Source: a virus. From it: DNA of 51,614 bases. Made by a program: the position numbers and the translations under genes. Positions 25,695 through 43,433 of the stretch are shown here, piece by piece; the stretch's first letter is position 1; every line of letters begins with the position of its first letter. The stretch covers positions 1 to 51,614 of the IMG/VR virus record IMGVR_UViG_3300009079_002130, one strand, 5' to 3'. The notes under the pieces are model-generated. The model was not told the origin of the DNA. It was given only the letters and a program-made list of their open reading frames with translations, and ran no database searches.

Positions 25695-25702
25695 TATAAA
25701 TA
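25695..25702 (+). promoter_or_regulatory. T4-like late promoter, extended form
   Basis: TATAAATACCTAAAAAGTAT, two bases after the tRNA-Val end and matching the extended promoters at 13435 and 19677; 19 bp before the ATG at 25722. Confidence 0.88.
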
Positions 25703-25721
25703 CCTAAAAAGTATTGGTGTA

Positions 25722-26156: not shown

Positions 26157-26168
26157 TTAATTATAAAG

Positions 26169-26429
26169 ATGGAAAACTTAAAAATTAGATGTAAGTCTTG
26201 CGGAAGTGAGATAGAAGGAAAGTCTGGAAAAACAGTTGCGTGTGGATGCCCTAATATGGCAACCATTCGCAATAATGAAAATGTTGCTGCACTTGACTTA
26301 TCAAAGGTTGTTATGATAAACTATATGAGTACCAAAGAAAAGTCTACTGTTCTTACGAATGAAGACCTTGCCTTCCAAGAAGCAAGGCGTCAGCGTAAAG
26401 TAAGACGACTTGATTTTGATGTCCGTTGA
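26169..26429 (+). CDS. zinc-ribbon small protein
   Basis: 86 residues. The N-terminus CKSCGSEIEGKSGKTVACGC has three to four cysteines in a ribbon-like arrangement (CxxC...CxC). The middle is mixed, and the C-terminus is basic (FQEARRQRKVRRLDFDVR). It may bind nucleic acid or protein. Follows the Dps gene by 12 bases in the same transcript. Confidence 0.65.
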   Translation: MENLKIRCKSCGSEIEGKSGKTVACGCPNMATIRNNENVAALDLSKVVMINYMSTKEKSTVLTNEDLAFQEARRQRKVRRLDFDVR

Positions 26430-26440
26430 TAGTTTTTATT

Positions 26441-26522
26441 GGAAGATAGCACCGATGGTTGGTAAATCGCCTTGAAAGCGATGCCAGGTTCACGCCTGAT
26501 AGTTCGATTCTATTATTTTCCT
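26441..26522 (+). tRNA. tRNA-Ser (UGA)
   Basis: Acceptor GGAAGAT/ATTTTCC (one G-U), anticodon arm ATCGC-CTTGAAA-GCGAT giving TGA, long variable arm (GCCAGGTTCACGCCTGA region) and T loop TTCGATT: a class II tRNA. The discriminator is T rather than the usual G. Confidence 0.88.
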
Positions 26523-26547
26523 TTTAATTGAAGACTATATAAAATAA

Positions 26548-26619
26548 CGGGGTGTAAGTCAGAGGTAGACGGTTTGCTTTGGGAGCAAAAAGACACTGGT
26601 TCGATCCCAGTCACCCCGA
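26548..26619 (+). tRNA. tRNA-Pro (UGG)
   Basis: Acceptor CGGGGTG/CACCCCG with discriminator A, anticodon arm TTTGC-TTTGGGA-GCAAA giving TGG, T arm CTGG-TTCGATC-CCAG. Confidence 0.92.
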
Positions 26620-26620
26620 T

Positions 26621-26640
26621 TGCCAGTTTCATGACTGGCA
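26621..26640 (+). terminator. hairpin after tRNA-Pro (termination/processing or operator)
   Basis: TGCCAGT (26621-26627) pairs with ACTGGCA (26634-26640). No T-tract; it ends four bases before the next -35 box. Confidence 0.5.
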
Positions 26641-26643
26641 CAC

Positions 26644-26672
26644 TTGACATAAAACTCAAATCACTCTATAAT
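26644..26672 (+). promoter_or_regulatory. sigma70-type early promoter
   Basis: TTGACA (26644-26649), 17-bp spacer, TATAAT (26667-26672): perfect consensus. The upstream ACTGGCACACTTGACA is shared with the promoter at 18742. Confidence 0.88.
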
Positions 26673-26695
26673 AACAAGGTAAACAAATCAAAGCG

Positions 26696-26914
26696 ATGTC
26701 TCTGACTATCAAATTCAAGAAAGATATTAGTACTCTTCGTGCCGCAGCGAATGGTGATTTTTATCTTGATGTAAAGAATCCGAAACTTTACAAGAAAGTC
26801 CGTAAGTTCTATCAAAATGAAGGAGTTATTTTTTCTGACGACCCTCTCGATAATTATGATATTCTAATCGATTATATTGTCCAAGACCTTGAGACCGTTG
26901 AAGTAACAAAATGA
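26696..26914 (+). CDS. small early protein, unknown function
   Basis: 72 residues: MSLTIKFKKDISTLRAAANG then DFYLDVKNPKLYKKVRKFY, acidic C-terminus (DYIVQDLETVEVTK). Consensus promoter directly upstream; ATGA overlap with the next small gene. The first of three coupled early genes (26696-27302). Function unknown. Confidence 0.65.
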   Translation: MSLTIKFKKDISTLRAAANGDFYLDVKNPKLYKKVRKFYQNEGVIFSDDPLDNYDILIDYIVQDLETVEVTK

Positions 26915-27042
26915 AAAATCTAATCGAAGTTAAGTACCAATACGCAAAATTTCCAAATGCTCTTTTGCGTAAGTTTTTTAAGACACAAGAACAAATTGAT
27001 ATTTTTAAGCAACAACACTCAGATTATATTTACATCAACTAA
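26911..27042 (+). CDS. 43-residue early protein, unknown function
   Basis: ATG 26911 overlaps the upstream stop (ATGA) and the TAA at 27040-27042 overlaps the next ATG (TAATG). The product begins MKNLIEVKYQYAKFPNALLR, basic and aromatic. The two overlaps strongly support it as a real coupled gene. No family recognised. Confidence 0.62.
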   Translation: MKNLIEVKYQYAKFPNALLRKFFKTQEQIDIFKQQHSDYIYIN

Positions 27043-27302
27043 TGATTCAATCTAAAGTTATTCTTGAAAAGGAAGAATATCGGTTTGTTGAAAGGGGTAT
27101 TATTGAACTCAACGGCAAACCCGATTATCGCCTTCAGAAAAAAGACTATTATACAAAACGATGGAATGATATCTATCTGTTTGATAATCAAATGCAATGT
27201 TTGACTGCTATGGAAGACCATCAATATGCCCGTTGGTTGGATCCTGATAGAGTTCCTTGTTATGTAAAAGATTATGATGATGAAGACACGGAGAGTCTCT
27301 AA
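27042..27302 (+). CDS. small early protein, unknown function
   Basis: 86 residues, beta-rich N-terminus (KVILEKEEYRFVERGIIELN) and an acidic C-terminus (VKDYDDEDTESL). Last gene of the early trio; its 3' end is duplicated as a 26-bp direct repeat downstream. Function unknown. Confidence 0.62.
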   Translation: MIQSKVILEKEEYRFVERGIIELNGKPDYRLQKKDYYTKRWNDIYLFDNQMQCLTAMEDHQYARWLDPDRVPCYVKDYDDEDTESL

Positions 27303-27360
27303 AAGTACTGGTCGGTGATGAACCCCCCTTTAGTCACGGAGAGACTCTAAAAGCACTGGT
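27287..27360 (+). repeat. 26-bp imperfect direct repeat (48-bp period) at the gene-cluster boundary
   Basis: 27287-27312 and 27335-27360 match at 24 of 26 bases (begins CACGGAGAG, ends ACTGGT). The first copy contains the end of the gene at 27042. It lies at the junction between the tRNA/early region and the AT-rich glycosyltransferase block. Confidence 0.7.
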
Positions 27361-27483
27361 GGATCCAAAATGACCCCTCAATAGGTTTCCAATTTCCTTA
27401 AAAAATTGGTGGTGCGGATGGAGAATACTCCCGCCTGGTTTCTTATTTCCAGTCAAAGAATAAGTGGCGAGCCTAAAGACCCC
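27361..27483 (+). other. non-coding, hairpin-containing junction sequence
   Basis: No supported gene. Short inverted repeats are visible (GGAGAATACTCC; CTTATT/AATAAG), as in the tRNA-cluster spacers, but no complete cloverleaf could be drawn. It may be a decayed tRNA or an insertion scar. Confidence 0.35.
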
Positions 27484-27513
27484 AAAGAGGAGTTGCATAA
27501 ACTCCTCTTTTTT
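27484..27513 (+). terminator. strong terminator overlapping a promoter
   Basis: AAAGAGGAGT (27484-27493) pairs perfectly with ACTCCTCTTT (27501-27510), then TTT. The loop TGCATAA carries the -35 box of the next promoter. Confidence 0.9.
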
Positions 27514-27521
27514 GCTATAAT
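27493..27521 (+). promoter_or_regulatory. sigma70-type promoter nested in terminator, driving the glycosyltransferase block
   Basis: TTGCAT (27493-27498), 17-bp spacer containing the terminator's 3' arm and T-tract, TATAAT (27516-27521). The start codon follows at 27544. Confidence 0.78.
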
Positions 27522-27543: not shown

Positions 27544-28341
27544 ATGCTTGCTAATGATGATTTGGGGAATCTGGGTAGACTTGGAAACCAGATGTTTCAA
27601 TATACTTCTCTTCGTGGTCTTGCTGCAAAGCACGGATATGAGTATTGTCTTCCTCCAAGAGAAGTAGTAGCAACACGGGATCCTAATGTCTTTAATTCAG
27701 ATATCACTATGTTTGAGTGTTTTAAGATTCCAGAAGCACCAAAATATGTAACAAACTTCCCGAAAATAACAGAATCATGTTTTGAATTGGATCAAAACTT
27801 ATGGAATAATTGTCCTGATAATATCAGTCTTTATGGATATTTTCAGACTGAAAAATACTTCAAACACATTGAAGAAGATATTCGCACCGCATTTACTTTT
27901 GTTGATGAAATAAAAGAACCAACACAAGAATCCTTCAAATCAAATTTTGGTGATACTGAAGTAGTGTCTCTCCATGTGCGTAGGGGAGATTATTTAAAAT
28001 ATTCTCATCATCCGGTCCAGTCTTTAGAATATTATTCTCAAGGACTCTCTCATATGCCAGAAGATATCCCAATAATGATTTTCTCTGATGAAATTGAATG
28101 GTGTAAAGAACAAGAATTGTTTCAAGAAGATCGTTTTATTTTCTCAGAAGGGAATAGTACTGGAGTAGATCTTTGCTTGATGTCTCTATGTTCTTATGCT
28201 ATAATTGTAAATAGTTCTTTTAGTTGGTGGGGTTCGTGGTTAGCAAACAGTAAAAAAACTGTAGCACCTAAAAATTGGTTTGGGATGCCGTTATCACATG
28301 ACACTAAGGATCTGTATCGCCAAGGATGGATTGTAATTTGA
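27544..28341 (+). CDS. GT11-like alpha-1,2-fucosyltransferase
   Basis: 265 residues from ATG 27544, placed 22 bp after the -10 box; an upstream in-frame extension would read through the terminator. GT11 motifs: LGRLGNQMFQYTSLRGLAAK at the N-terminus, VSLHVRRGDYL (donor GDP-sugar binding, HxRRGD), and SLCSYAIIVNSSFSWWGSWL near the C-terminus. It would add fucose or a related deoxyhexose to a glycan. First gene of the glycan block; its codon use is closer to the phage core than to its very AT-rich neighbours. Confidence 0.88.
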   Translation: MLANDDLGNLGRLGNQMFQYTSLRGLAAKHGYEYCLPPREVVATRDPNVFNSDITMFECFKIPEAPKYVTNFPKITESCFELDQNLWNNCPDNISLYGYFQTEKYFKHIEEDIRTAFTFVDEIKEPTQESFKSNFGDTEVVSLHVRRGDYLKYSHHPVQSLEYYSQGLSHMPEDIPIMIFSDEIEWCKEQELFQEDRFIFSEGNSTGVDLCLMSLCSYAIIVNSSFSWWGSWLANSKKTVAPKNWFGMPLSHDTKDLYRQGWIVI

Positions 28342-28367
28342 AAAATAAGTATTGAAAAAATTTCACT

Positions 28368-29030
28368 ATGAAAGTCAACATTCCAAGCGTAATATATTTT
28401 CACATAGCTACCATTGGAAAATATCAAGAAATTTTTGATGAAATTTATTCACAAATACTAGAATCTAATCTAATTAATGAAGTTAAATTGATAAATCTTT
28501 GCATTGTTGGTGATGGTGAATTGATCTTTCCCTCACATAAAAAAATTAAAATTTATAAAGATCCTTATATTGAGTCTGGAGAATTTTTTACTTTAAATTT
28601 AATCAAAACATTTTCAGATTCGGTGAATGAAAAGTATGGAATTTTATACCTCCACACAAAAGGAGTAACGACTCCAGATAATTTGTGTATTGATGATTGG
28701 CGTCAGTATATGACTTATTTCAACGTCAATCAATATCAGAAGTGTTTTGATATGTTGGATGAGTATGATTCTTGTGGTGTTGATTTGGTAAGTGAACCAG
28801 CGACTCATTATTCTGGAAATTTTTGGTGGGCAAATTCTTCATATATTAAACAACTTCCAACTATAGATGAAATTAAGTTTCCAAAGATTCCTCCCATACT
28901 ATCCATAAGGCACAACTGCGAATTTTGGATTGGTATGGGCAATGGTAAATTAAAAAGTCTTTGGAACTCATATATAAATGTATATGAAAGACATCTTCAT
29001 AGATACGATACAATGGAGTATAAAAAATGA
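28368..29030 (+). CDS. glycosyltransferase-like protein
   Basis: 220 residues. GILYLHTKGVTTPDN and DDWRQYMTYFNV, then HYSGNFWWANSSYIKQLP resemble bacterial/viral transferases that act on cell-surface sugars; the 'YLHTKG' motif is typical of this group. No clear DxD is visible. Very AT-rich codons. ATGA-type overlap (29027-29030) with the following methyltransferase suggests coupling and a shared pathway. Confidence 0.68.
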   Translation: MKVNIPSVIYFHIATIGKYQEIFDEIYSQILESNLINEVKLINLCIVGDGELIFPSHKKIKIYKDPYIESGEFFTLNLIKTFSDSVNEKYGILYLHTKGVTTPDNLCIDDWRQYMTYFNVNQYQKCFDMLDEYDSCGVDLVSEPATHYSGNFWWANSSYIKQLPTIDEIKFPKIPPILSIRHNCEFWIGMGNGKLKSLWNSYINVYERHLHRYDTMEYKK

Positions 29031-29632
29031 AATTGGTTGAAATTTTGAATAAATTTAATTTAGATTCTGACTTCTTAAATGAAGGTTATACTGAAGGAGG
29101 AACTGATAAAAATAGTTATCATAGCTACATTGAAAATTTTTATGAAAAGGAATTTGAACCTTATAAAGAAAGTAAAATTGATTTATTGGAAATTGGAATA
29201 GAAACTGGTGGTTCCTTAAAACTGTGGAAAGAGTATTTTTTAAATTCCAAATCTGTTGTTGGAGTTGATATATCGGATGAAAAAATAGATCAAAGATATA
29301 AAAATATTGATGGCATAATCATGCATTTTGGTGATGCATATGATGAAAAGTTTTCTAAAAAATTCAAACAATTTGATATTATTATTGATGATGGTCCTCA
29401 TACTTTGGAAAGTCAATTAAAATCTATTAAATTTTATTTGCCGAAATTGAAGCAAAATGGACTTTTTATAATTGAAGATATTCAAAGTGTAGAGCATTTT
29501 GATATTTTAATTGATAAATCTAAAGAAGTTTGCGAATCTATTGATAATCAAGTTGAGTATTGTGTTGAATGTATTGATTTACGTGATAAGAAAGGTAGGT
29601 GGGACGATCTAATATTTTTAATCAGGAGTTAA
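29027..29632 (+). CDS. class I SAM-dependent methyltransferase (sugar-modifying type)
   Basis: 201 residues. IDLLEIGIETGGSLKLWKEY is motif I (SAM binding), VVGVDISDEKID motif II, FDIIIDDGPHTLESQ the D-D-G-x-H motif of CmcI/macrocin O-methyltransferase-like enzymes, and LFIIEDIQSV a later motif. It probably O-methylates a sugar in the glycan made by neighbouring genes. Coupled to the gene upstream. Confidence 0.82.
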   Translation: MKLVEILNKFNLDSDFLNEGYTEGGTDKNSYHSYIENFYEKEFEPYKESKIDLLEIGIETGGSLKLWKEYFLNSKSVVGVDISDEKIDQRYKNIDGIIMHFGDAYDEKFSKKFKQFDIIIDDGPHTLESQLKSIKFYLPKLKQNGLFIIEDIQSVEHFDILIDKSKEVCESIDNQVEYCVECIDLRDKKGRWDDLIFLIRS

Positions 29633-29650
29633 ATACCCTACAAAAAAATT

Positions 29651-30355
29651 ATGTCATTTCAATTAATTGTAGAAACTTTAAGAAATAAAAAAGGAATAGA
29701 GTTTGGTGGACCAACTGGACTTTTTAGTGTGCCAGAACATAACCTACACTTATATCCTCATGTAAATCTTGATGGTGGTAATATATTGAATAATAATTAT
29801 TTTCAATCCAATATAGGGTCAAATTTTACCTATTCCGAAAAAATTGGAAAGCAATTTGACATTGATTGTACAAATGAAAAACAACTTTCTTTGTCGGAAA
29901 GATATGATTTTATAGTTACCTCTCATGCTATAGAGCATTTTGCCAATCCTATCAATACTTTAAATTTGTGGAAAAAATATGTTTTAAAACCTGATGGGTA
30001 TGTTTTATCCATCATACCTAATAAAGATTTTTGTTTTGATAGGAAAAGACCATTAACAACCTTAGAGCATTTAATTTCAGACTATAAAAAAAATATTGGT
30101 GAAAATGATACAACCCATATTGAAGAACAAAAAAAATTACATGATTGGAGTGCTGGTGGACTTGTTAATTTTTATGAACTATGTGAAATAAATTATCTTA
30201 CAAGAGTTGTACATCACCACACTTTTAATATAGAATTGGTAGAGAAAATGTTTTCATACTCCGGATTTGAAAATATTGTTTCTTATATACATAATTTTTA
30301 TGGTACACCATTAAATATCGTAAACCTATCAATGGTAAAAAATGATAACTATTAA
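29651..30355 (+). CDS. SAM-dependent methyltransferase
   Basis: 234 residues. KGIEFGGPTGLFSV is a variant motif I, and DFIVTSHAIEHFANPI with LKPDGYVLSIIPNK are the later methyltransferase motifs of the Methyltransf_11-like group. A His-rich stretch (TRVVHHHTFNIELV) may be in the active site. Overlaps the next gene by 14 bases. Likely part of the same glycan-modification pathway; substrate unknown. Confidence 0.78.
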   Translation: MSFQLIVETLRNKKGIEFGGPTGLFSVPEHNLHLYPHVNLDGGNILNNNYFQSNIGSNFTYSEKIGKQFDIDCTNEKQLSLSERYDFIVTSHAIEHFANPINTLNLWKKYVLKPDGYVLSIIPNKDFCFDRKRPLTTLEHLISDYKKNIGENDTTHIEEQKKLHDWSAGGLVNFYELCEINYLTRVVHHHTFNIELVEKMFSYSGFENIVSYIHNFYGTPLNIVNLSMVKNDNY

Positions 30356-31304
30356 TTATCTTGCTCATGATCGTTCCAATAATTTTTGGAATATTACAAA
30401 ACATTTTCTTAATTTAATCAAAGAACAAAATAAATCAAAAATTAGAGTTAATATTCTTACAACTCATAATGCTGATTTTGAAATACTTGATGGTATAGAA
30501 ACAAATATAGTTTCATTTAATTCCGGATATAACTATATGTCAAAAATACAATATGCCGTTTCCCAAAATACAGAATATTCTGTAAAATTAGATGAAGATT
30601 GCTTTATTGGTAATCATGTATGGGATTATATGATTGAAAATGTTGATATTTTAGAATCTGATGATAATTTCATTCTAGCACCATTACTTTCAAACAATAT
30701 TCCTTTGGTGGATGAATTTATAGAATCTTTTATTACTGATGAATTTATTAAAAATGAAATCTATTCTTATTTCTTAAAAAGAGATATGCCAAATGGACTT
30801 TGGGGTGTAGACTATTCTCCTCTTAATGAATATACACTTCAAGCATCATCTTGGAATCCTTCTGCTTTTTATGAAGGTGTTAGTCGAATAGATCATTATT
30901 ATAAAGGGATTCATCCTATTCGTATTTGTGCAGAATCGCAAGTTATCTTAAATGATTATATTGTAGATAACTTTGATAAAATAATTGATAAGCAAGATTA
31001 CTCTATTGAAGAATTTAATCGTCCTTATTATACAAATAGTGTTTTTCTTGTTAAAACTAAGGATTGGAAAAGTTTTCTTAATATGTCTGGAGGTGATGCT
31101 TTTGATGAAGTTGCATTTAATAGTTTTAAAAATACATTTAATAAAAAGACTTTCTACATCAAGAATGGATTTTCAATTCATTTGACTTATAATACTATTC
31201 ATAATTCCAATCATAATGTGTGGGGTATTGGTATGATTGATGGTCTTGATTATGAAACTAATTTGCTTAAAAAAATTCATTATAAATTAGGTTATCAACA
31301 ATAA
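30342..31304 (+). CDS. GT-A-type glycosyltransferase
   Basis: 320 residues. A Rossmann-like N-terminus (TINYLAHDRSNNFWNITK) and EYSVKLDEDCFIGNHVWDYM carrying a DxD-like motif for metal/nucleotide-sugar binding. DKIIDKQDYSIEEFNRPYYT, then GMIDGLDYETN follow. No closer family is assigned. ATG/TAATG junction with the next gene at 31304. Confidence 0.68.
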   Translation: MITINYLAHDRSNNFWNITKHFLNLIKEQNKSKIRVNILTTHNADFEILDGIETNIVSFNSGYNYMSKIQYAVSQNTEYSVKLDEDCFIGNHVWDYMIENVDILESDDNFILAPLLSNNIPLVDEFIESFITDEFIKNEIYSYFLKRDMPNGLWGVDYSPLNEYTLQASSWNPSAFYEGVSRIDHYYKGIHPIRICAESQVILNDYIVDNFDKIIDKQDYSIEEFNRPYYTNSVFLVKTKDWKSFLNMSGGDAFDEVAFNSFKNTFNKKTFYIKNGFSIHLTYNTIHNSNHNVWGIGMIDGLDYETNLLKKIHYKLGYQQ

Positions 31305-32179
31305 TGAAATTAAAATCAAACAAAGTTGCCTTTGTTATTCCGGTTTATCCTCCTCATTATGGGTATTTAAATTTTCTTGATAGTCTCCCAAATGACTTGG
31401 ATTTTGATATCTACTTTATTCTTTCTTATAATGAAGATTTAGATATTTTAAAGTCATGTAATTTGAATCAAATATATAATACTATAGTATTAGAAGAAAA
31501 ATTTAATCGTAATTTTATTTCTAATATTGTCAATTCTAATACAATAATTACTTTTAAAAAATATTATGCTATAAACATGCTGAAGAATAGATATGAATAC
31601 ATTGCAGCAGTTGATTCTGAAATTGAATTTGTATCTATAGATAATGTATATGAAAAATTTAAACAGTATTGTGATAAAAAGAAAATTTTTGGAGCATCCT
31701 TAAATGAAAATAGGTTAGAAATAGCAAAGGATATAATGGGGCATCCTTCAAAATTTTTTGATCAAAATAATGAAGAATTAAAAAATAAAACGTGTGGTTT
31801 GACTCATTATTTTTGGTTTTCTGATATTCCAATTTATGATACTAAAATTGCTTCAGAATTCTTTGAATTTATAAATTTTGAAAATTATGAAACATTTGTA
31901 AATAAGTTAACTTGGTGGGTATTTGATTACATACCGTACATTTATTATTGTGTTCTTTATAAAGGTTATGACTTAATTAATTTAAAAGAGTATGGTATTA
32001 TGAGGAATTGGAGTATGGAATCAATGCCTATTGAAACTTATTTTGAAATAAATGAAAAATTTTCATATAAACCATTGTGGTTGATACATGACGTATATAA
32101 TGAAAATAAGCATCAAATAAAAAAAGATGATATAATTATGACATACCATAGAAATGACGGTCGAGCTGTCTACTTATAA
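31304..32179 (+). CDS. glycosyltransferase-like protein
   Basis: 291 residues. KVAFVIPVYPPHYGYLNFLD is a typical GT start; YIAAVDSEIEFVSIDN occupies the place of the DxD motif (here D-S-E). Later segments are Trp/Tyr-rich (TWWVFDYIPYIYYCVLYKGY). Extremely AT-rich. Probably a transferase of the block, possibly with altered metal dependence. Confidence 0.65.
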   Translation: MKLKSNKVAFVIPVYPPHYGYLNFLDSLPNDLDFDIYFILSYNEDLDILKSCNLNQIYNTIVLEEKFNRNFISNIVNSNTIITFKKYYAINMLKNRYEYIAAVDSEIEFVSIDNVYEKFKQYCDKKKIFGASLNENRLEIAKDIMGHPSKFFDQNNEELKNKTCGLTHYFWFSDIPIYDTKIASEFFEFINFENYETFVNKLTWWVFDYIPYIYYCVLYKGYDLINLKEYGIMRNWSMESMPIETYFEINEKFSYKPLWLIHDVYNENKHQIKKDDIIMTYHRNDGRAVYL

Positions 32180-32195
32180 ATGATTGGTAATTTGT

Positions 32196-33566
32196 ATGAA
32201 TAAGTTAGTAATTTTTGACCTCGATGGGGTTTTAATAGATAGTAGAGAAATGCACTATGAGGCACTCAATTGTGCTCTTGAAAATGTAGATAAGAAGTAT
32301 ATTGTCAATCGTGATGAGCATCTAAGTCTCTATGATGGTCTCCCTACTTCTCGTAAGTTGGCAATGCTGACCGAGAAGAAGAGTCTTCCTGTAGATACTC
32401 ATCAACAGATTTGGGAAGATAAGCAGAGAGCAACCTTTGAGATCTTTTCAAAGTTAAAGAATGACTTTGAACTGATGCTCTACTTTAGAAGACTCAAAGA
32501 TGAAGGGTTTCAAATTTGCGTAGCTAGTAATAGTATTCGTAATACGGTTAAATTGGTTCTACTAAAATTGGGAGTATTGGAGTTTGTTGATTACTATGTC
32601 AGCAATGAAGATGTAGTCCGTAACAAACCATTTCCTGAGATGTACTGGAAGTGTATGACTGCTTGTAATGCTCTTCCTAAGGACACTGTAATTTTTGAAG
32701 ATAGTCATATTGGAAGGCAGGGTGCTCTGGATAGTAAGGCACATCTAATTCCTATTGAGAACCGTCAGCATATGACCGAGAAAAAGATTGAAGAAGCAAT
32801 TGATATTTTGACGCAAACAACGGTAAGTCATATTCCTTGGAAGTCTGATAAGATGAATGTTCTTATTCCTATGGCAGGTGCTGGTAGTCGCTTTGCGAAT
32901 GCTGGATATACCTTCCCCAAACCACTGATTGAAGTGGATGGTAAACCAATGATTCAGGTTGTTGTTGAGAACCTTAACATCGAAGCAAACTATACTTTTA
33001 TTGTTCAGAAGGATCACTATGAAAAGTATAGTCTTCAATATCTCCTAAACCTGATTGCCCCTAACTGCAATATCGTTCAGGTGGATGGTCTTACCGAAGG
33101 TGCTGCCTGCACTACTCTGCTTGCCAAAGAGTTCATCGATAATGATGCTCCATTGGTAATGGCAAACTCTGACCAGTTTGTAGAGTGGAATAGTAACGAG
33201 TGCCTGTATGCCTTTAATGCAGATGGTATTGATGGTGGTATCGTTAGCTTCAAGGCAACTCATCCTAAGTGGTCTTATGCCAAGGTTGGTGATGATGGTT
33301 TTGTATCAGAGGTTGCGGAGAAGAAACCAATCAGTGATAATGCAACAGTCGGTATCTATTTCTGGAAGAAAGGTTCTGACTATGTAAAATATGCTGAACA
33401 GATGATTGAGAAGAATGTCAGAACCAATGGTGAGTTCTATGTCTGCCCAGTCTTCAATGAAGCAATTGGTGATGGTAAGAAAGTTCGTATCAAAGATATT
33501 GAAAGAATGTGGGGCATTGGAACTCCTGAAGATCTAAATTATTTCTTGGAGCACTATAAAGGATGA
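32196..33566 (+). CDS. fusion of HAD-family phosphatase and sugar nucleotidyltransferase
   Basis: 456 residues from ATG 32196 (an in-frame TTG at 32184 is less likely). N-terminal half: HAD motif I IFDLDGVLIDS with nucleophile Asp, motif II VASNSIRNT, motif III Lys in RNKPFPEM, motif IV VIFEDSHIGRQGA. From ~residue 217: nucleotidyltransferase motif IPMAGAGSRFANAGYTFPKP (GxGxRF plus Lys), VDGKPMIQVVVENL, and NSDQFVEWN. Such fusions make an NDP-sugar and remove a phosphate in one polypeptide. It supplies donors to the neighbouring transferases. Its GC and codon use match the phage core, unlike its neighbours, hinting at a different history. Confidence 0.85.
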   Translation: MNKLVIFDLDGVLIDSREMHYEALNCALENVDKKYIVNRDEHLSLYDGLPTSRKLAMLTEKKSLPVDTHQQIWEDKQRATFEIFSKLKNDFELMLYFRRLKDEGFQICVASNSIRNTVKLVLLKLGVLEFVDYYVSNEDVVRNKPFPEMYWKCMTACNALPKDTVIFEDSHIGRQGALDSKAHLIPIENRQHMTEKKIEEAIDILTQTTVSHIPWKSDKMNVLIPMAGAGSRFANAGYTFPKPLIEVDGKPMIQVVVENLNIEANYTFIVQKDHYEKYSLQYLLNLIAPNCNIVQVDGLTEGAACTTLLAKEFIDNDAPLVMANSDQFVEWNSNECLYAFNADGIDGGIVSFKATHPKWSYAKVGDDGFVSEVAEKKPISDNATVGIYFWKKGSDYVKYAEQMIEKNVRTNGEFYVCPVFNEAIGDGKKVRIKDIERMWGIGTPEDLNYFLEHYKG

Positions 33567-34036
33567 AACTGATTGCTCATCGTGGAAATACTGATGGTCC
33601 AAATCCAATTAGAGAAAACAGTGTTGATTATATTGAAAAAGCAATTTCTGAAGGATTTGATGTTGAAATTGATTTGAGAGTTGAAGATAATGAATATTAT
33701 CTTGGTCATGATGATCCTCAATATTTTGTAACTATTGAATGGTTGAGAAAATATAAGGATGTTCTTTGGATTCACTGTAAAAACCCAGAAGCACTTGAAA
33801 AAATGTTAAGTTCTACAATAGAATTTAATTACTTTTGGCATGAAAATGATTGCTATACAATCACCAGTAAAAGTATTGGATGGATTTATCCCGGAAAAGA
33901 ATATGTATTTAAATCAGTTATTGTTATGCCAGAATGGAATATCTCAGTAGATGATATTTTTAAAATTGCTCAGCAGAAGTGTTTTGGAATATGTTCAGAT
34001 TATGTAAAAAAAATAAATTATCATGAGTATTGCTAA
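33563..34036 (+). CDS. short glycerophosphodiester phosphodiesterase-like protein
   Basis: 157 residues. LIAHRGNTDG and NSVDYIEKAISEGFDVEIDL, RVEDNEYYLGHDDPQ show the GDPD core motif HRG, the Glu/Asp pair (E-x-D) and the second catalytic His in LGHDD. It is about two thirds of the usual length and lacks the usual C-terminal strands (ends GICSDYVKKINYHEYC). It could cleave a glycerophospho-sugar or be used in glycan remodelling. Overlaps the upstream stop (ATGA). Confidence 0.75.
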   Translation: MKLIAHRGNTDGPNPIRENSVDYIEKAISEGFDVEIDLRVEDNEYYLGHDDPQYFVTIEWLRKYKDVLWIHCKNPEALEKMLSSTIEFNYFWHENDCYTITSKSIGWIYPGKEYVFKSVIVMPEWNISVDDIFKIAQQKCFGICSDYVKKINYHEYC

Positions 34037-34749
34037 TGAAATTCACTTTTGGAATAATTACTTCCGGTATTGATGATCGAATTGGTAGGATTATTGATAG
34101 TATTGAATCTTTAAATATTCCCAAGTATGAGATTATTATCGTTGGAAATTGTAATTTAAAAAGAACTAATACTAGGATAATTCCTTTTGACGAAGATATA
34201 AAATCGAAATGGATTACCAAAAAGAAAAATATAATAACACAACTTGCTACATATGAAAATATAGTGTATTTGCATGATTATTTTTATTTTAATCCGGACT
34301 GGTATGATGGGTGGTTAAAGTATGGTGACGATTATAAAGTTTGTATGAATCGTATTTTAAACCTCGATGGAACTAGATATCGTGATTGGGTTTTGTGGGT
34401 TTGTAATGGTAATGATACTGATATACCTGTTCCGGGGCATCATCCAATTGATGATTTAGTTGCAGAATATAGAGGTGCTTTAATACCATATGATATGATC
34501 CACCTTTCAAAATATATGTATTTTTCTGGTGCTTATTGGGTTGGAAAAAGGGATGTTATGTTAGAATTTCCATTAGATGAAACTCTTATCTGGGGTCAGG
34601 GGGAGGATGTAAAATGGTCTAAAGAAATACGAAAAAAATATAATTTTTCTATGAATCCATATTCTACAGTGCAACTAATGGTTCAAAAAGATAGAGCATT
34701 TGAAGAAAGTAAAAGTGAAATGATTAAAAAACTAAAAATTATTATTTAA
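34036..34749 (+). CDS. GT2-like glycosyltransferase
   Basis: 237 residues from ATG 34036, overlapping the upstream stop (TAATG). FGIITSGIDDRIGRIIDSIE and YEIIIVGNCN are the GT2 N-terminal motifs; WITKKKNIITQLATYENIVY then LHDYFYFNPDWYDGW replaces the DxD. GQGEDVKWSKEIRKKYNF is the ED acceptor motif. Likely membrane-associated or soluble transferase of the block. Confidence 0.78.
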   Translation: MKFTFGIITSGIDDRIGRIIDSIESLNIPKYEIIIVGNCNLKRTNTRIIPFDEDIKSKWITKKKNIITQLATYENIVYLHDYFYFNPDWYDGWLKYGDDYKVCMNRILNLDGTRYRDWVLWVCNGNDTDIPVPGHHPIDDLVAEYRGALIPYDMIHLSKYMYFSGAYWVGKRDVMLEFPLDETLIWGQGEDVKWSKEIRKKYNFSMNPYSTVQLMVQKDRAFEESKSEMIKKLKIII

Positions 34750-34753
34750 AAAA

Positions 34754-35563
34754 ATGAAAAATAAATTTAATCTTATTGGAGATACATTTAGTCATACGAC
34801 AGGTGGGCATACTGGTTATTCTGTGCATGGAAAGATATCCAATTACATAGAGTGGGTACATGACTTGTCCGCTGATGATACAATGTATGTTGATCGATAT
34901 ATTTTTAATGCAATGCATGATAATATTCTTGGCAACAAATATGGGTGGCTGATGGAATCTAAATCATTAGATTATCAAAGAGGAATTGTAGGTGAAATAA
35001 AAAGGAATAAAGATGAGTATTTTAAAGTATTTAAATATATTTTTACACATGATAAGGAACTCCTATCATTAGATAGTAGATTCAAGTGGTGTCCTGCTCA
35101 AGGATTTTGGATTGAAGATTATAAATTACATCAAAAATCTAAAATGATTTCTTTCATTACATCAAATAAAAATTTTACCGAAGGGCACAAAAAAAGATTG
35201 GAATGGGTTGAAATGCTAGGAGATCAAGTTGATATTTATGGTAGGGGATTTAATGAGATAGATAATAAGGAGCAAGGATTGTGTGATTATATGTTTTCAG
35301 TTGTTGTGGAGAACGGTTTTTATGAATCGTATTTCACAGAAAAAATTCTTGATTGTTTTGCGACAGGTACAATACCTGTTTATATGGGATCTCCAGATAT
35401 TTGCAATTATTTTAACTGTGATGGTATAATAAAATTATCTGAAGAATTTGACATATCAGAGGAAATATATTATAATAAAATTGATGCAATAACAGAAAAT
35501 TTCAAAAAAGTCAAACAATATGAAATTCTTGAAGACTTCATTTATTTAAATTATTTAAGGTAA
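34754..35563 (+). CDS. GT10-like fucosyltransferase
   Basis: 269 residues. The C-terminal GT10 signature FSVVVENGFYESYFTEKILD, then CFATGTIPVYMGSPDI, is clear: this is the GDP-fucose-binding alpha-1,3/4-fucosyltransferase motif. The N-terminal part (GDTFSHTTGGHTGYSVHGK) is divergent. It probably works with the GT11 enzyme at 27544 on the same glycan, so fucose-like residues may be a feature of this structure. Confidence 0.82.
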   Translation: MKNKFNLIGDTFSHTTGGHTGYSVHGKISNYIEWVHDLSADDTMYVDRYIFNAMHDNILGNKYGWLMESKSLDYQRGIVGEIKRNKDEYFKVFKYIFTHDKELLSLDSRFKWCPAQGFWIEDYKLHQKSKMISFITSNKNFTEGHKKRLEWVEMLGDQVDIYGRGFNEIDNKEQGLCDYMFSVVVENGFYESYFTEKILDCFATGTIPVYMGSPDICNYFNCDGIIKLSEEFDISEEIYYNKIDAITENFKKVKQYEILEDFIYLNYLR

Positions 35564-35569
35564 AAATTT

Positions 35570-36355
35570 ATGGATACTAATTATGGGTGGGATATTGATT
35601 CCAAAGATAGTGGAGAATATATTAATACTTGTAAAAAAATTATTGAAGATTCTAATATATTTGATAATTTTAAATCGTCCAAAGAATATAATGTTATTCT
35701 GGAGCATGTTCATTATGAATTGGGATTACAATATTATGATCATATTCAAAAAGTTGGCAAAGAAATCTATGACAAATATTTGAATAAATTTTTAGAAAAT
35801 GATCAAATAGGAAATCCAAATCAATTTTTCTATGGGGACGGTAAAATATCACCGACCACTCTTAGATATATTAAAAATTGTTTAGATTTATCTTTTCTTT
35901 GTGATGATCAAAGTGTATCTAAAATTGTTGAAGTTGGTGGTGGGTATGGTGGTTTGTGTAAAACTTTGAGCGTTCTATGTAACTTTAATGAGTATTTAAA
36001 TATTGATCTTCCCGAAACAGTATTGCTTCAAGAAAAATACTTAAAAAATTTCTCTGAAATATACCCAAAAATTAAATTCGTTCCCTGTAATGAATTGGAG
36101 GATATTTCTAATATTGATCTTTTTATTAGTAATTATTCTCTCTCCGAACTTACGATTGAAACTCAACTAAATTATTACAATAAAATTATTAAAAATAGTA
36201 AAATAATTTATATTACATACAATTTGATTACCAATGATTCCATGAATAATTATAATATTCTCATATCAAAATTGAAAGATGATGGGTTTAAACTTGAAGA
36301 TAATTATTTTGATTATGGCAGTCATAAAAATACAATAATAGTTGGAAAAAAATGA
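35570..36355 (+). CDS. putative sugar O-methyltransferase
   Basis: 261 residues. KIVEVGGGYGGLCKTLSVLC is a strong SAM-binding motif of the putative sugar O-methyltransferase family, followed by YLNIDLPETVLLQEKYL and DLFISNYSLSELTIETQLNY. A long N-terminal helical part (NQFFYGDGKISPTTLRYIKN) precedes it. Overlaps the next gene as ATGA. Third methyltransferase of the block. Confidence 0.82.
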   Translation: MDTNYGWDIDSKDSGEYINTCKKIIEDSNIFDNFKSSKEYNVILEHVHYELGLQYYDHIQKVGKEIYDKYLNKFLENDQIGNPNQFFYGDGKISPTTLRYIKNCLDLSFLCDDQSVSKIVEVGGGYGGLCKTLSVLCNFNEYLNIDLPETVLLQEKYLKNFSEIYPKIKFVPCNELEDISNIDLFISNYSLSELTIETQLNYYNKIIKNSKIIYITYNLITNDSMNNYNILISKLKDDGFKLEDNYFDYGSHKNTIIVGKK

Positions 36356-37068
36356 AAATCTGTATTCTTACTATTGCAACAAACAAATACATTCAGTTTG
36401 TTGAAAGACTTCTTGATGATATTGAGAAAAACTTTCTTGATGGTCATGATATTCAATGCCTTCTTTTTACTGATCATGAAGTAGAAACTTCTGATAATGT
36501 AAAGGTTTCTCAAATAGGGCATAAACCTTGGCCAGAACCTGCTCTTAAAAAATATAACTATATTAATTCAGAATCAGAATATCTGAAAGATTTTGACTAT
36601 CTTTATTTGTTTGATGCCGATGTTGGTATTGTTAACACTGTTGGTGAAGAGGTATTGCAAGATCTTGTTGGGGTTCTTCACCCATATAAGATTTTGGAAT
36701 CAAAGAAAATATATCCATACGAAAAACGAAAAGAATCTACGGCATATGTTTCTGACCAAAATTATGATAAGTATTATGCTGCCGCATTTGTTGGTGGAAA
36801 GTCTTCCATATTTTTAAAGATGGCAAAGACTATTGCTGAAAGAGTTGAAGAAGATGATAGAAATGGTATTATAGCAAAGTGGCATGATGAGAGTCATTTG
36901 AACAAATACTTTAATGAGAATCCTCCAACTGCATTGTCTCCAAGTTATATGTTTCCAGAAGAACTCATCAATCATCCCCAATATCCATTTGAACCAAAAA
37001 TAGTTGCTTTGAAAAAAGAAAGTTCTTTTAATCAAGAAAAAATTCAAATGGGACAGTATCCAGTATGA
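36352..37068 (+). CDS. GT6-like (ABO-type) glycosyltransferase
   Basis: 238 residues. Hallmarks of GT6: GHKPWPEPALKKYNYI, YLYLFDADVGIVNTVGEE (DxD region, here D-A-D), LVGVLHPY, YYAAAFVGGKSSIFLKM and WHDESHLNKYF near the C-terminus. GT6 enzymes transfer alpha-1,3-linked GalNAc or Gal, as in the human A/B transferases; bacterial and phage members are known. It would build a blood-group-like glycan together with the fucosyltransferases here. Overlaps neighbours by 4 bases on each side. Confidence 0.87.
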   Translation: MKICILTIATNKYIQFVERLLDDIEKNFLDGHDIQCLLFTDHEVETSDNVKVSQIGHKPWPEPALKKYNYINSESEYLKDFDYLYLFDADVGIVNTVGEEVLQDLVGVLHPYKILESKKIYPYEKRKESTAYVSDQNYDKYYAAAFVGGKSSIFLKMAKTIAERVEEDDRNGIIAKWHDESHLNKYFNENPPTALSPSYMFPEELINHPQYPFEPKIVALKKESSFNQEKIQMGQYPV

Positions 37069-37775
37069 AAATTGATTTGAGAAAAATTCCTGCTGTTTAT
37101 ATGAATCTCAAACAGCACGAAGAAAAAAATGAGAAGATGCAAACACTTCTTGATAAATGTGGTTTTGAGACTAGAATTAAAGTTGAGGGTAATTATAGAC
37201 CAGACAATCCTCCGGCAGGATGTGCTGGTGCTCACTATATTGGGTTATGTGAAATTGATCCTCCATTTGTTTTGTTTGAGGATGATTGCCTTTTATATAA
37301 CTTTGAACCTATCATAGAAGTTCCTGATGATGCAGATGCTGTTTATCTTGGAACATCACAGTGGGCAAGATACTTCTCTTTTTCTGGACCTTTCGTTCAT
37401 TATGATATTGTTGATGACAATATCGTTAGGGTCTACAATATGCTTAGTGGACATGCTATATTGTATTTGACTCAAGAATATGTTAGAATGTGTCAAAGAA
37501 TATCACACCATGCTTCTGAAGTCATTGGATATAATCAAGATACTGGGTTTGCTGAAGTTCAAAAATATTTTAATATCTATTCTGTAAACAATCCTTTCTT
37601 TAAACAGAGTGGATATAATAATGCAGTTACTAGTTGTAAAGTAACAGATATTGGAATTCATGTGAGTGATGCTCAAAGATTTTTTGATAGTGTTAAATGT
37701 GACCTTTCTAGATTGCAAGGTGTACCCGATTTAAGTGGGGCTCCAAGTACATATCATCCATTAAAAATTGTATAA
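37065..37775 (+). CDS. GT25-like glycosyltransferase
   Basis: 236 residues. The short N-terminal Lys-rich helix, then GCAGAHYIGLCEIDPPFVLF, then EDDCLLYNF: the GCxxxH and EDD motifs point to the GT25 (LPS galactosyltransferase-like) group. The remainder is divergent (GHAILYLTQEYVRMCQRISH). Same strand and coupled to its neighbours. Confidence 0.72.
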   Translation: MKIDLRKIPAVYMNLKQHEEKNEKMQTLLDKCGFETRIKVEGNYRPDNPPAGCAGAHYIGLCEIDPPFVLFEDDCLLYNFEPIIEVPDDADAVYLGTSQWARYFSFSGPFVHYDIVDDNIVRVYNMLSGHAILYLTQEYVRMCQRISHHASEVIGYNQDTGFAEVQKYFNIYSVNNPFFKQSGYNNAVTSCKVTDIGIHVSDAQRFFDSVKCDLSRLQGVPDLSGAPSTYHPLKIV

Positions 37776-37779
37776 TATT

Positions 37780-38541
37780 ATGGTAGTTCAAATTTTTACT
37801 TCAGTAGTAAATCGTCCTGATTTTGTGAGTCTACAAAATAAACTATTCCAAAAGTTTCTTAAAAAAGATTATCAGTTTCATATTGTAGACGATTCAATTG
37901 ATTCTGAGATTTCTGATCAATTTCAGTCAATTTGTTTGGAAAATCAGTTTTCTTATTATAAAAAACCAGAAAGAAAAAATCCAATGAATCCTGCTCAAGC
38001 ATGTGCGGATACGGTTCAGTGGACTTATGATAATATCATTAGAAAAAATCATTTAGATGATATTGTTTTCTTCTGTGATTCTGATTTGTTTTTGATTGAT
38101 GAATTTAATATTGAGGATTATATGAGTGATGCTATTATTGCAGGACTTCCACAAAAGAGGGGAGAAGTTACTTATATGTGGAATGGGATAATGTTTTTTA
38201 ATATGCCTAAGATAACTGATTTGGATATTAATTTTTCTGATGGTGTTGTTGAAGGTGAGATGACCGATGTTGGTGGGCATACGTATTATTATTTTAAGAA
38301 AAATAATATTGAGATGAAAAAAACTGATGAAGAGTTCCCACTATACCCAACTCATTTTGGGGATATTGAAATTCAAAATGATGAAGTAACCAAAGGTTAT
38401 AACTTTGAATTGCATTTAGGTGGTAAGTTCCTTCACTACCGTGCCGCAACTAACTGGCATTCCAACTGGAGAGATTCTAATGATCCTTTATTTAAAAAAA
38501 CTGAGATCTTTAATACAATTATAGGGGAACTTTTAAAATGA
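37780..38541 (+). CDS. GT-A-type glycosyltransferase
   Basis: 253 residues from ATG 37780 (a TTG 12 bases earlier would overlap the upstream stop). IFTSVVNRPDFVSLQNKLFQ, then IVFFCDSDLFLIDEFNIED contains the D-S-D metal motif. YMWNGIMFFNMPKITDLDIN and FLHYRAATNWHSNWRD mark the acceptor side. No closer family assigned. Overlaps the FkbM gene as ATGA. Confidence 0.7.
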   Translation: MVVQIFTSVVNRPDFVSLQNKLFQKFLKKDYQFHIVDDSIDSEISDQFQSICLENQFSYYKKPERKNPMNPAQACADTVQWTYDNIIRKNHLDDIVFFCDSDLFLIDEFNIEDYMSDAIIAGLPQKRGEVTYMWNGIMFFNMPKITDLDINFSDGVVEGEMTDVGGHTYYYFKKNNIEMKKTDEEFPLYPTHFGDIEIQNDEVTKGYNFELHLGGKFLHYRAATNWHSNWRDSNDPLFKKTEIFNTIIGELLK

Positions 38542-39176
38542 AACATTTTCTAGATCTTGGTGCTCATAAATTAGAAGGTTTAAAGGAATTTACCGAAAAG
38601 TTGAATATTAATAAAGAATGGAATGTTTATTCCTATGAGCCCAATATTTTAGTTCATGAAGAATCTGAAAAAATTATTGAAACTATAAAAAATAATTATG
38701 CATATTTTGAATTTAATAAAAAGGCAGTTATGGATGAAAGTGGAACAATAACCTTTAATGGGCATAAAGGTGCTTGGAAAGATCAAACTAAATCTGATTT
38801 TATGGAGGGATACACTACTGGATCAAATGCTTTAGATACTAATCCATTGATTGATATTGGTAATGGTGTGATTTTTGATGTTTTTCAATATGATGTTGAA
38901 TGTGTTGATATTGATGATATCTTAGAGAGTATTTGTAATAAAGATTCTGAGGCAGAGATTTACATTAAATGTGATATTGAAGGATCTGAATTTGTAGTTC
39001 TTCCTAAAATTATTGAATCTGAATATGTACATTATATCAAAGAGATGTATATTGAATGGCATGAGCGTATGTGGTTTCATGAAGGAAATGTGGGAATTAT
39101 CAATAAACAAAAAGAAAGACAAGTTTATACTTCTAATCTTAAAAAATTAGGAATTAAGTGTTTCGTTCATCATTAA
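38538..39176 (+). CDS. FkbM-family methyltransferase
   Basis: 212 residues. FLDLGAHKLEGLKEF is a variant SAM motif I, WNVYSYEPNI the motif II acidic residue, VDIDDILESI and IYIKCDIEGSEFVVLPKI the hallmark FkbM DIEGxE motif. FkbM enzymes O-methylate hydroxyls on sugars or polyketides. Fourth methyltransferase of the block. Confidence 0.85.
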   Translation: MKHFLDLGAHKLEGLKEFTEKLNINKEWNVYSYEPNILVHEESEKIIETIKNNYAYFEFNKKAVMDESGTITFNGHKGAWKDQTKSDFMEGYTTGSNALDTNPLIDIGNGVIFDVFQYDVECVDIDDILESICNKDSEAEIYIKCDIEGSEFVVLPKIIESEYVHYIKEMYIEWHERMWFHEGNVGIINKQKERQVYTSNLKKLGIKCFVHH

Positions 39177-39177
39177 T

Positions 39178-39969
39178 ATGGATAAAAATAAAGCGGCATA
39201 TAAATTAAAAAATCTTTCTCCGGTATATTATCTTAATCTTGATGGGCAACCAGAAAGAAAGGAATATATGGAAGAGCAGTTTAAGTATTGGGAGATTGAA
39301 GATTATACTCGTATCTCTGCGTATGATGGAAGAGAAGATGACCTGAGTGATATTATAAAAGGTCGCTATCCTGAGAATATGACCTCTGGTGAGATTGGGT
39401 GTACAACTTCTCATCTCAAGGCACTCCAGCACTGGATAGAGACCTCTGACAGTCCTTATGCAGTTATTATGGAAGATGATGTGGATTTACAACTTGCCAG
39501 ATGCTGGAACTTTACCTGGAATGATATTATTGCCAAGGTTCCTTATGATTATGATGTAATTCAACTTGCCATTATCTGTACTGGTGATTTGCATGTAAAA
39601 CTTCATAAGAGATTTGTGAATGATTTTTCAACTGCTGCTTATATGATTACTCGTCACCATGCCGAAAAGATTCTAAGGCATCATGTTCGTGGAGATAAGT
39701 ATAAGTTAGATAATGGTGTAAAACCCAGAGCAGTTGCGGACGACTTGATTTACAATTCTGGCAATACCTTTTCTATTCCTCTGTTCCTTTATAAGATTTC
39801 TTTAGGTTCTTCTATTCATCCTGAGCACATTGATGTCTTTCATCGTCAGAGTCACGATGGTCTCCTCAACTTTTGGGAGAACCAGGGTGCTGATATGACA
39901 ATTGATGACCTGATGAACTATGACCCTTATCTGGGAAGAATCACAAATCCCTCCCCGCCACCAAGTTAG
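39178..39969 (+). CDS. GT25-family glycosyltransferase
   Basis: 263 residues. VYYLNLDGQPERKEYMEEQF is the GT25 N-terminal motif, GCTTSHLKALQHW and YAVIMEDDVDLQLAR (with EDD) the donor-binding motifs, and FSTAAYMITRHHAEKILRHH a later motif. LPS/glycoprotein beta-galactosyl- or glucosyltransferase type. Codon use is nearer the phage core than that of most of the block. Last gene before the early promoter at 39990. Confidence 0.85.
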   Translation: MDKNKAAYKLKNLSPVYYLNLDGQPERKEYMEEQFKYWEIEDYTRISAYDGREDDLSDIIKGRYPENMTSGEIGCTTSHLKALQHWIETSDSPYAVIMEDDVDLQLARCWNFTWNDIIAKVPYDYDVIQLAIICTGDLHVKLHKRFVNDFSTAAYMITRHHAEKILRHHVRGDKYKLDNGVKPRAVADDLIYNSGNTFSIPLFLYKISLGSSIHPEHIDVFHRQSHDGLLNFWENQGADMTIDDLMNYDPYLGRITNPSPPPS

Positions 39970-39983: not shown

Positions 39984-40007
39984 GGGCACTTGACATTGCC
40001 CTCCTTT
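39984..40007 (+). terminator. terminator with promoter -35 box in the loop
   Basis: GGGCA (39984-39988) pairs with TGCCC (39997-40001), followed by TCCTTT. The loop CTTGACAT holds the -35 box of the next promoter. Confidence 0.6.
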
Positions 40008-40018
40008 GCCTATATAAT
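39990..40018 (+). promoter_or_regulatory. sigma70-type early promoter for hli genes
   Basis: TTGACA (39990-39995) in the terminator loop, 17-bp spacer, TATAAT (40013-40018). Start codon of the hli gene 24 bp downstream. Confidence 0.87.
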
Positions 40019-40042: not shown

Positions 40043-40252
40043 ATGACCGTTACGACCAATGAGCACGGGCAACAAAACCTGTTCGCAAAGGAACCTGAAA
40101 TGTATGTGTCTCCAACTGATGCAGAGCGTTATGCACTTGAGACTTATGCAGAGAAGGCAGAAAAAGCAAATTCAAGATGGGCGATGCTAGGATTTGTTGC
40201 CGCAGTTGTTTCTTATGCACTCACAGGACACCTATTCTTTGGTGTAATCTGA
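40043..40252 (+). CDS. hli: high-light-inducible protein (Hli/Hlip)
   Basis: 69 residues. One membrane helix with the chlorophyll-binding signature EKANSRWAMLGFVAAVVSYA (ExxNxRxAMxGF) and an acidic N-terminus. Hli proteins protect photosystem II and its assembly intermediates from light damage; cyanophages carry them with psbA to keep photosynthesis going during infection. Same transcript as the tiny gene and second hli downstream. Confidence 0.93.
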   Translation: MTVTTNEHGQQNLFAKEPEMYVSPTDAERYALETYAEKAEKANSRWAMLGFVAAVVSYALTGHLFFGVI

Positions 40253-40842: not shown

Positions 40843-40955
40843 CACGGGGTTAAGAACCGTGTCTTCTCCAACCGGGATCACGAGAAGTAAAGCATCCCTC
40901 ATATCCACGATAGAGGGTGTCGTGGAGTATACTGTACCCAGTTCGTCCCCCGAAC
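40843..40955 (+). other. structured psbA 5' leader
   Basis: Several hairpins: CACGG/CCGTG (40843-40847, 40857-40861), CTTCTC/GAGAAG (40863-40868, 40882-40887), CCCTC/GAGGG (40896-40900, 40913-40917) with an alternative pairing CCACGA/TCGTGG (40905-40910, 40920-40925), and GTTCG/CGAAC (40941-40945, 40951-40955). The alternative pairings could allow switching. No Shine-Dalgarno is visible before the ATG. Confidence 0.5.
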
Positions 40956-40977
40956 TCATATTTACCCTTTTAATTAA

Positions 40978-43433
<2,456 letters not shown>

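Follow-up and report, generated by a model that had tools for sequence, protein, structure and literature searches.

The window analysed here, a 51,614-base IMG/VR record (IMGVR_UViG_3300009079_002130), comes from a T4-like cyanophage of Kyanoviridae type, closest among annotated phages to S-SRM01 of freshwater Synechococcus, and it carries a dense block of glycan-modification genes at 27544–39969. This block is an exchangeable cassette with fixed borders that has been replaced whole in a sister phage, and it is best explained (probability about 0.6) as the variable segment of a 'glycotype' locus found in T4-like cyanophages. Lipopolysaccharide ('LPS') clusters near hli are already known, including the family 6 glycosyltransferase (GT6) of phage P-SSM2; what is new is the anatomy of the cassette.

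Whole-cassette exchange between fixed borders

The exchange is seen most clearly in a sister contig, IMGVR_UViG_3300027214_000179 (hereafter G001), which matches the window at 97.9% identity over 22494–27521, up to the last base of a TATAAT box. Identity (95.9%) resumes at 39174, four bases before the ATG of a GT25 gene. Between these borders lie 11.65 kb in the window and 10.83 kb in G001, without detectable DNA similarity: the G001 cassette contains GDP-mannose dehydratase- and fucose synthase-like genes, other glycosyltransferase (GT) genes, a methyltransferase gene and a GT11 gene at 47%. With a near-identical backbone and a 964-aa fibre-like open reading frame (ORF; 46895) that is 99% identical, the two phages constitute a clean natural experiment in which the glycan genes differ. 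Assembly artefacts are unlikely on both sides of this comparison, because the window block is present, whole or in part, at 99.99–100% identity in three IMG/VR records besides the window itself (four in all), and because the first 3.4 kb of the G001 cassette recur in another contig (L442) at 90.6% and the G001 flanks are 2–6% divergent from the window.

The same breakpoints recur among other phages. Alignments stop between −7 and +15 of the −10 box in 257 of 406 pairs of loci with the wcaG RNA, which lies at the left border, and start between −15 and +20 of the ATG in 2453 of 2811 pairs of GT25 loci, the pairs in both counts being non-independent. Sharp breaks are also found in near-identical swap pairs (L067/L394, 99.8%; L044/L050, 96.9%; L020/L021, 96.6%). 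An earlier note on this DNA, made from the letters alone, had proposed a comparison of gene content across cyanophages; carried out here, it reveals constant flanks, a variable core and exchange of the whole cassette. The exchange probably proceeds by homologous recombination within the conserved flanking sequences, as described for the PeSLs of T4-like phages, gene-shuffling sites where a terminator stem-loop and a sigma-70-like promoter overlap (Arbiol 2010 and Comeau 2014, via PMC4503421).

A composite left border of wcaG RNA, terminator-like hairpin and promoter-like sequence

The left border combines a wcaG RNA (RF01761), an intrinsic-terminator-like hairpin and a promoter-like sequence that overlaps the hairpin (Table 1). 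None of these elements, nor the fixed GT25 end, figured in the earlier note. To avoid a bias towards glycan genes, wcaG elements were gathered from IMG/VR by DNA pattern alone, yielding 92 testable unique elements. A terminator lies 3' of 78 of these, and a terminator with an overlapping promoter (the composite) is present in 60, compared with 5% and 0.2%, respectively, in shuffled sequences. In control stretches, terminators and composites amount to 6/82 and 0/82 upstream and 6/77 and 1/77 downstream. Under stricter rules the terminator is retained in 62/95 and the composite in 51/95 elements, and the composite occurs in none of 1,900 shuffles. The spacer of the composite measures 17 in 90 of 91 cases, across 44 different stem sequences. 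The full arrangement is also found in S-SRM01, SynMITS9220M01, Bellamy (with variant hexamers) and DSL-LC03. In the window, 27484–27521 thus has the attributes of a PeSL, a terminator overlapping a sigma-70-like promoter at a gene-exchange junction, with predicted promoter and terminator activity.

We propose that the wcaG RNA would stay at the 3' end of an upstream two-gene transcript started from the promoter at 26644 and insulated by the terminator, and that an incoming cassette would come under control of the early-type border promoter. A nearby promoter dedicated to wcaG was considered and rejected: one lies within 40–150 nucleotides (nt) in only 3 of 127 elements, whereas promoters rise in frequency 590–810 nt upstream, before the small genes. 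The presence of wcaG in host genomes was likewise rejected: the core pattern gave 34 scattered matches in 257 Gb, none of them with a cyanobacterial title and all taken as chance. Just 5' of wcaG, at 27296–27380, there are two imperfect copies of a unit of about 48 nt (CACGGAGAG[T/A]CTCTAAAAG...ACTGGT...CCCC).

An orphan riboswitch candidate since 2010, wcaG is considered probably cis-regulatory (Weinberg 2010, PMC2864571). Its regular position immediately upstream of a terminator that overlaps a promoter reorders the hypotheses to be tested. It is possible, if doubtful, that wcaG acts on the cassette as a 5'-leader riboswitch, the hairpin serving as expression platform and ligand-gated read-through expressing the glycan genes. 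Such a role would agree with the earlier classification, with the median distance of 17 nt between the GTGGCG of wcaG and the hairpin, and with the frequent presence of glycan genes downstream (the first gene after wcaG is of glycan type in 52 of 87 cases, by simple motifs). However, transcripts starting at the promoter-like sequence, which overlaps the hairpin, would lack wcaG altogether, and wcaG also precedes tRNA, fibre and hli genes. Moreover, no element-specific pairing links wcaG to the hairpin arms: complementarity to the 5' arm is equal for own and swapped elements (7.55 versus 7.40), and a pairing switch between wcaG and terminator was rejected on this ground. The border or 3'-end reading of wcaG and the gated read-through reading are thus both candidates.

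A constant GT25 gene as the right border

The cassette ends with a GT25 gene (39178), which is followed by hli and psbA. This order recurs in S-SRM01, DSL-LC02 and P-SSM2: hli and ferredoxin are found in all three, and in S-SRM01 and P-SSM2 the displayed stretch also includes psbA. Of 78 IMG/VR loci fetched by their GT25, 69 contain an hli homologue, whereas each of the second to fifteenth cassette genes has a homologue in only 0–27, mostly at about 30–50% identity. GT11 is the exception among cassette genes, with a homologue in 66 of the 78. The constant GT25 perhaps makes a sugar linkage common to all glycotypes.

Two further hairpin/promoter composites occur in the window besides that at 27484, compared with 0.05 expected. 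One separates GT25 from hli (39985–40018); the other, at 25209–25245 right after pstS, has a 9-bp stem around TTGACA followed by TATAAT. Together, the composites at 25209, 27484 and 39985 suggest that this segment is built of PeSL-bounded blocks. A promoter at 35448 inside the GT10 gene, of perfect consensus but without a hairpin and within an AT-rich gene, was not counted. Downstream, psbA (40850–43324) is split by group I introns (42751–42977 and 43094–43324), with an HNH homing-endonuclease ORF at 41666–42355 and a PhotoRC-II RNA on its 5' side. The G001 psbA is interrupted after about 108 codons, with a different HNH ORF, at a place (about 41298) where the window is continuous.

Gene content and the predicted glycan

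The block comprises 16 ORFs, not the fifteen genes of the earlier note, all on the + strand and mostly overlapping, as that note had described, or separated by gaps of a few bases (Table 1). It also holds most of the enzymes listed there: GT11 (Pfam E = 8e-29), GT10 (5e-10), GT6 (2e-39), one GT25 (5e-15 at 39178), other GT-A enzymes, and, in the single ORF 32196, a HAD phosphatase (HAD_2, 1.5e-22) fused to a nucleotidyltransferase (NTP_transferase, 1e-10). The four methyltransferases hold up as well: three are recognised by Pfam (ORFs 29027 and 29651, and FkbM at 38538) and the fourth, ORF 35570, encodes a sugar O-methyltransferase of NanM type (TIGR04371, 2e-24). Two entries fare less well. 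ORF 37065 has no Pfam match and is GT25-like through membership of phrog_24091, which also weakly matches true GT25, and the GDPD-like ORF 33563 is short, with a profile match to GDPD structures that is N-terminal only (E = 0.012).

Structure prediction assigns a GT-A fold to ORFs 30342 (AlphaFold pLDDT 84; Foldseek probability 1.00 to the GT domains of LH3 and COLGALT1) and 37780 (pLDDT 91; Foldseek matches to COLGALT1 and BoGT6a). PDB profile searches gave nothing usable for these two or for ORF 34036. In family searches, ORFs 28368, 31304 and 34036 have no confident match; from their context they are probably glycosyltransferases. The PDB profile match of ORF 28368 to PITG_15142 spans just 35 residues, and ORF 34036 is conserved across phages.

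Table 1. Features of the glycan cassette and its borders (positions in the window).
Feature	Coordinates	Strand	Evidence
Sigma-70-like promoter (TTGACA-17-TATAAT) of small upstream operon	26644–26672	+	12/12 consensus match
Small constant upstream gene, phrog_552, function unassigned	26696–26914	+	homologue in 79/120 wcaG loci
Small constant upstream gene, phrog_481, function unassigned	27042–27302	+	homologue in 86/120 wcaG loci
wcaG RNA (RF01761), left border element	27381–27478	+	Rfam 96 bits, cut-off 42, E = 3.7e-17
Intrinsic-terminator-like hairpin, 11 pairs then T-run	27484–27510	+	sequence; wcaG-element survey
Promoter-like TTGCAT-17-TATAAT (PeSL type) overlapping hairpin; last base 27521 is the left exchange point	27493–27521	+	sequence, locus comparison
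GT11 alpha-1,2-fucosyltransferase-type (phrog_2644)	27544–28341	+	Pfam, PHROG
Function unassigned, probably glycosyltransferase (context)	28368–29030	+	no confident family; dN/dS about 0.18
Methyltransferase	29027–29632	+	Pfam
Methyltransferase	29651–30355	+	Pfam
GT-A fold glycosyltransferase	30342–31304	+	AlphaFold + Foldseek
Function unassigned, probably glycosyltransferase (context)	31304–32179	+	no confident family match
HAD phosphatase (beta-phosphoglucomutase-like) fused to sugar nucleotidyltransferase	32196–33566	+	family searches
Short GDPD-like protein (phrog_34507)	33563–34036	+	weak profile match
Probable GT-A enzyme (context)	34036–34749	+	no family match; conserved across phages
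GT10 fucosyltransferase-type	34754–35563	+	Pfam
NanM-type sugar O-methyltransferase	35570–36355	+	TIGR04371 2e-24
GT6, ABO-type	36352–37068	+	Pfam; DXD, WHDES motifs; YYAAAF at ABO donor-specificity loop
GT25-like (phrog_24091)	37065–37775	+	PHROG
GT-A fold glycosyltransferase	37780–38541	+	AlphaFold + Foldseek
FkbM methyltransferase	38538–39176	+	Pfam
Constant terminal GT25 (phrog_2835; P-SSM2 counterpart T4-GC 266); ATG is the right exchange point	39178–39969	+	Pfam, PHROG, locus comparison
Second hairpin/promoter composite (TTGACA-17-TATAAT, 5-bp stem), between GT25 and hli	39985–40018	+	sequence scan
hli, constant right flank	40043–40252	+	homologue in 69/78 GT25 loci

GT6 is already known in cyanophages and is present in 71 phage records, including P-SSM2. 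The window GT6 (36352) aligns over its full length with the GT6 profile, human ABO (4.5e-35) and BoGT6a (1e-31), with a DXD motif at D88-A-D90 and W177-H-D-E within WHDESHLNKY; both aspartates of the DXD motif and the WHDE are invariant in 13 phage GT6 proteins. The donor loop reads YYAAAFVGG in the window, YYMGAFFGG in the ABO chain compared and YYAGGFNGG in the P-SSM2 group. At the third variable place of ABO, alanine presumably goes with galactose (B-type) and glycine with N-acetylgalactosamine (GalNAc). As a lead from this loop, the window phage may add a B-like cap and P-SSM2 an A-like one. The soluble cassette enzymes would build, on a cytoplasmic acceptor, a short fucosylated and methylated oligosaccharide with an ABO-type alpha-Gal or GalNAc cap. 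The blood-group-like, methylated oligosaccharide of the earlier note is borne out in so far as ABO-type GT6 motifs, two fucosyltransferase families and methyltransferases are all present, 'blood-group-like' being a label of family membership only.

Virion, host surface or DNA as acceptor

None of 625 ORFs in 58 loci has three or more predicted membrane spans, and no flippase- or polymerase-like protein was recognised among them, by a crude hydropathy test in which the controls score two spans (psbA part) and one (hli). The acceptor should therefore be already cytoplasmic or exported by host proteins. De novo synthesis of an exported polysaccharide was rejected for the same lack of multi-span proteins, and a change of O-antigen, which the earlier note had entertained, is disfavoured if the antigen is to be made de novo.

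The most likely acceptor, at roughly even odds, is a newly made virion protein. Virion proteins are favoured because all of them are newly made during infection, because GT25 includes protein glycosyltransferases, the best PDB match of the constant GT25 being Mimivirus R655, and because a large relative has GT25/methyltransferase fusions beside Gly-rich structural-type genes and 2-oxoglutarate (2OG)-oxygenases. R655 is a putative collagen glycosyltransferase (PMC9546862). In the large relative (contig G006, 234 kb; L460 4323–10214), the GT25-like/methyltransferase-like fusion ORFs are 956, 449 and 546 aa long, with domains identified by eye, and could be virion-protein modifying enzymes.

The second choice, a serious rival though with the odds against it, is the lipid-A core of the host. 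The cassette enzymes would then cap or extend the core, or another surface glycan, in the cytoplasm and leave export to the host, thereby blocking superinfection or recognition, and the variety of cassettes would reflect competition among phages. Such genes have been read as LPS genes in the literature (PMC9602691, PMC3037559), LPS enzymes occur among the GT25, GT11 and GT10 families, the border promoter is of early type, and host exporters would spare phage ones. Masking the host would, however, presumably require most of the surface glycan to be replaced within one latent period in slow-growing cells, the latent period of S-SRM01 being 6–8 h (PMC8557907), and family searches recognised no LPS-core-specific gene in the window cassette.

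Glycosylation of phage DNA, as in T4, is very improbable and was rejected. A T4-like phage with glycosyltransferases behind an early-type promoter might invite this reading, but the thymidylate synthase/hydroxymethylase family PF00303 is absent from all five complete relatives and three contigs searched and from the 234-kb relative, with control genomes positive, and four methyltransferases and six or more GTs would exceed the needs of a DNA sugar.

Base composition and purifying selection

The GC content of individual cassette genes is 0.24–0.39, compared with 0.39–0.45 for nrdA, nrdB, the porin gene, pstS, hli and psbA. The higher AT content that the earlier note reported is thus real, but its use as evidence of recent transfer was rejected: cassette GC (median 0.326, versus 0.397 in the next 3 kb downstream) is the lower of the two in 45 of 46 distinct loci, so that a GC-poor cassette is the rule at this locus. 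Transfer itself is supported on other grounds, namely the replaced cassette of the sister phage and the repeated breakpoints.

The cassette genes are intact and, judged by substitution ratios, under purifying selection. Relative to the closest measurable relative of each gene, the ratio of non-synonymous to synonymous substitution rates (dN/dS; Nei-Gojobori) is mostly about 0.03–0.2, with dS saturated in some pairs and higher, unreliable values in distant ones. Whether clusters of this kind have a function or are 'stuffer DNA' was a question raised but not settled by Sullivan et al. 2010 (PMC3037559). Filler or decaying DNA retained for headful packaging would fit the observation that large clusters make up most of the extra genome size in P-SSM2 and S-SSM7 (PMC3037559), but is highly implausible for a tight operon with 16 of 16 ORFs intact, these low dN/dS values and borders kept across swaps. 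Purifying selection and conserved exchange borders therefore favour a functional cassette over packaging filler.

Weighing the glycotype reading

Several points weigh against the reading of the block as the variable part of a glycotype locus, among them the non-independence of the locus pairs and the crudeness of the hydropathy test. The commonest −35 hexamer of the border promoter, TTGCAT, agrees with the consensus at only 3 of 6 positions, and part of its sequence is under constraint from the hairpin. In P-SSM2, cassette and GT25 are present but the stretch searched gives no wcaG match, which means that the left border is not shared by all such loci. The early promoters would also suit host-surface modification. 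Finally, the constancy of GT25 partly reflects how the 78 loci were chosen, since this gene was used to retrieve them, although G001, S-SRM01, DSL-LC02, P-SSM2 and GT6-seeded loci (a GT25-type match in 66 of 77) support it independently.

Beyond this reading, a more tentative proposal, on balance unlikely to hold in full, is that the locus is dedicated to glycotype switching. The wcaG/terminator/promoter border and a constant priming GT25 would form a cassette slot through which near-identical phages display different virion sugars, in the manner of O-antigen serotype switching, wcaG being part of the border element rather than a plain 5' riboswitch.

Other features of the window and its relatives

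At 12189–15734, repeated genes share the start 'LMEAYQAVYAPQELTEEQVWEEVENWVNSLLEEGYDLS', in a region that is rearranged in G001, with many short matches. An abiF RNA (RF03085, 57 bits) lies at 21373–21409, directly before a tRNA-Arg gene; it is also found in S-SRM01 (L002 578–614) and annotated in S-CREM1, always among tRNAs. The porin-like ORF next to pstS (22626–24107) is shared with S-SRM01, where it is annotated as a porin, and with sister contigs. In phage DSL-LC03, L009 8381–8466 scores 51.8 bits against the selenocysteine tRNA family (cut-off 47) and is probably a variant serine or leucine tRNA.

Relation to known systems

With glycan genes beside a GT25 of T4-GC266 type, hli and psbA, the locus belongs among the cyanophage LPS-type clusters. 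It resembles the 'LPS' cluster of P-SSM2 near hli03 (PSSM2_257–271), described together with those of S-SM2 and S-SSM7 (Sullivan et al. 2010, PMC3037559), in phage family, in the neighbourhood GT25 T4-GC266–hli–ferredoxin–psbA and in a GT6 at 55% identity. By contrast, the inner genes are largely other, the stretch searched lacks the wcaG match, and exchange borders were undefined in that study. The S-SRM01 and DSL-LC02 loci have wcaG, a variable cassette, a terminal GT25 (about 81% and 77% DNA identity, respectively), hli and ferredoxin, but their cassettes differ in content, with genes for GDP-fucose or nucleoside diphosphate (NDP)-sugar synthesis and a NodZ-type fucosyltransferase.

As in the original description of wcaG RF01761 (Weinberg 2010, PMC2864571), the RNA is found in cyanophages near exopolysaccharide genes; here, however, a terminator and a promoter-like sequence intervene between RNA and glycan genes, which calls a simple 5'-leader reading into question. 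Unlike the PeSLs described so far, to the extent that PMC4503421 relays them, the present element is joined to a wcaG RNA and guards one large glycan cassette; a literature search, which covered Arbiol and Comeau through PMC4503421, found no paper linking the two. Bacterial O-antigen loci of galF/gnd type offer a parallel in architecture, with constant borders around exchangeable low-GC glycan genes. The cyanophage locus has such constant flanks without a multi-span flippase or polymerase: it dispenses with Wzx, Wzy and ligase, resides in a phage genome and has a single constant GT25 as its right border.

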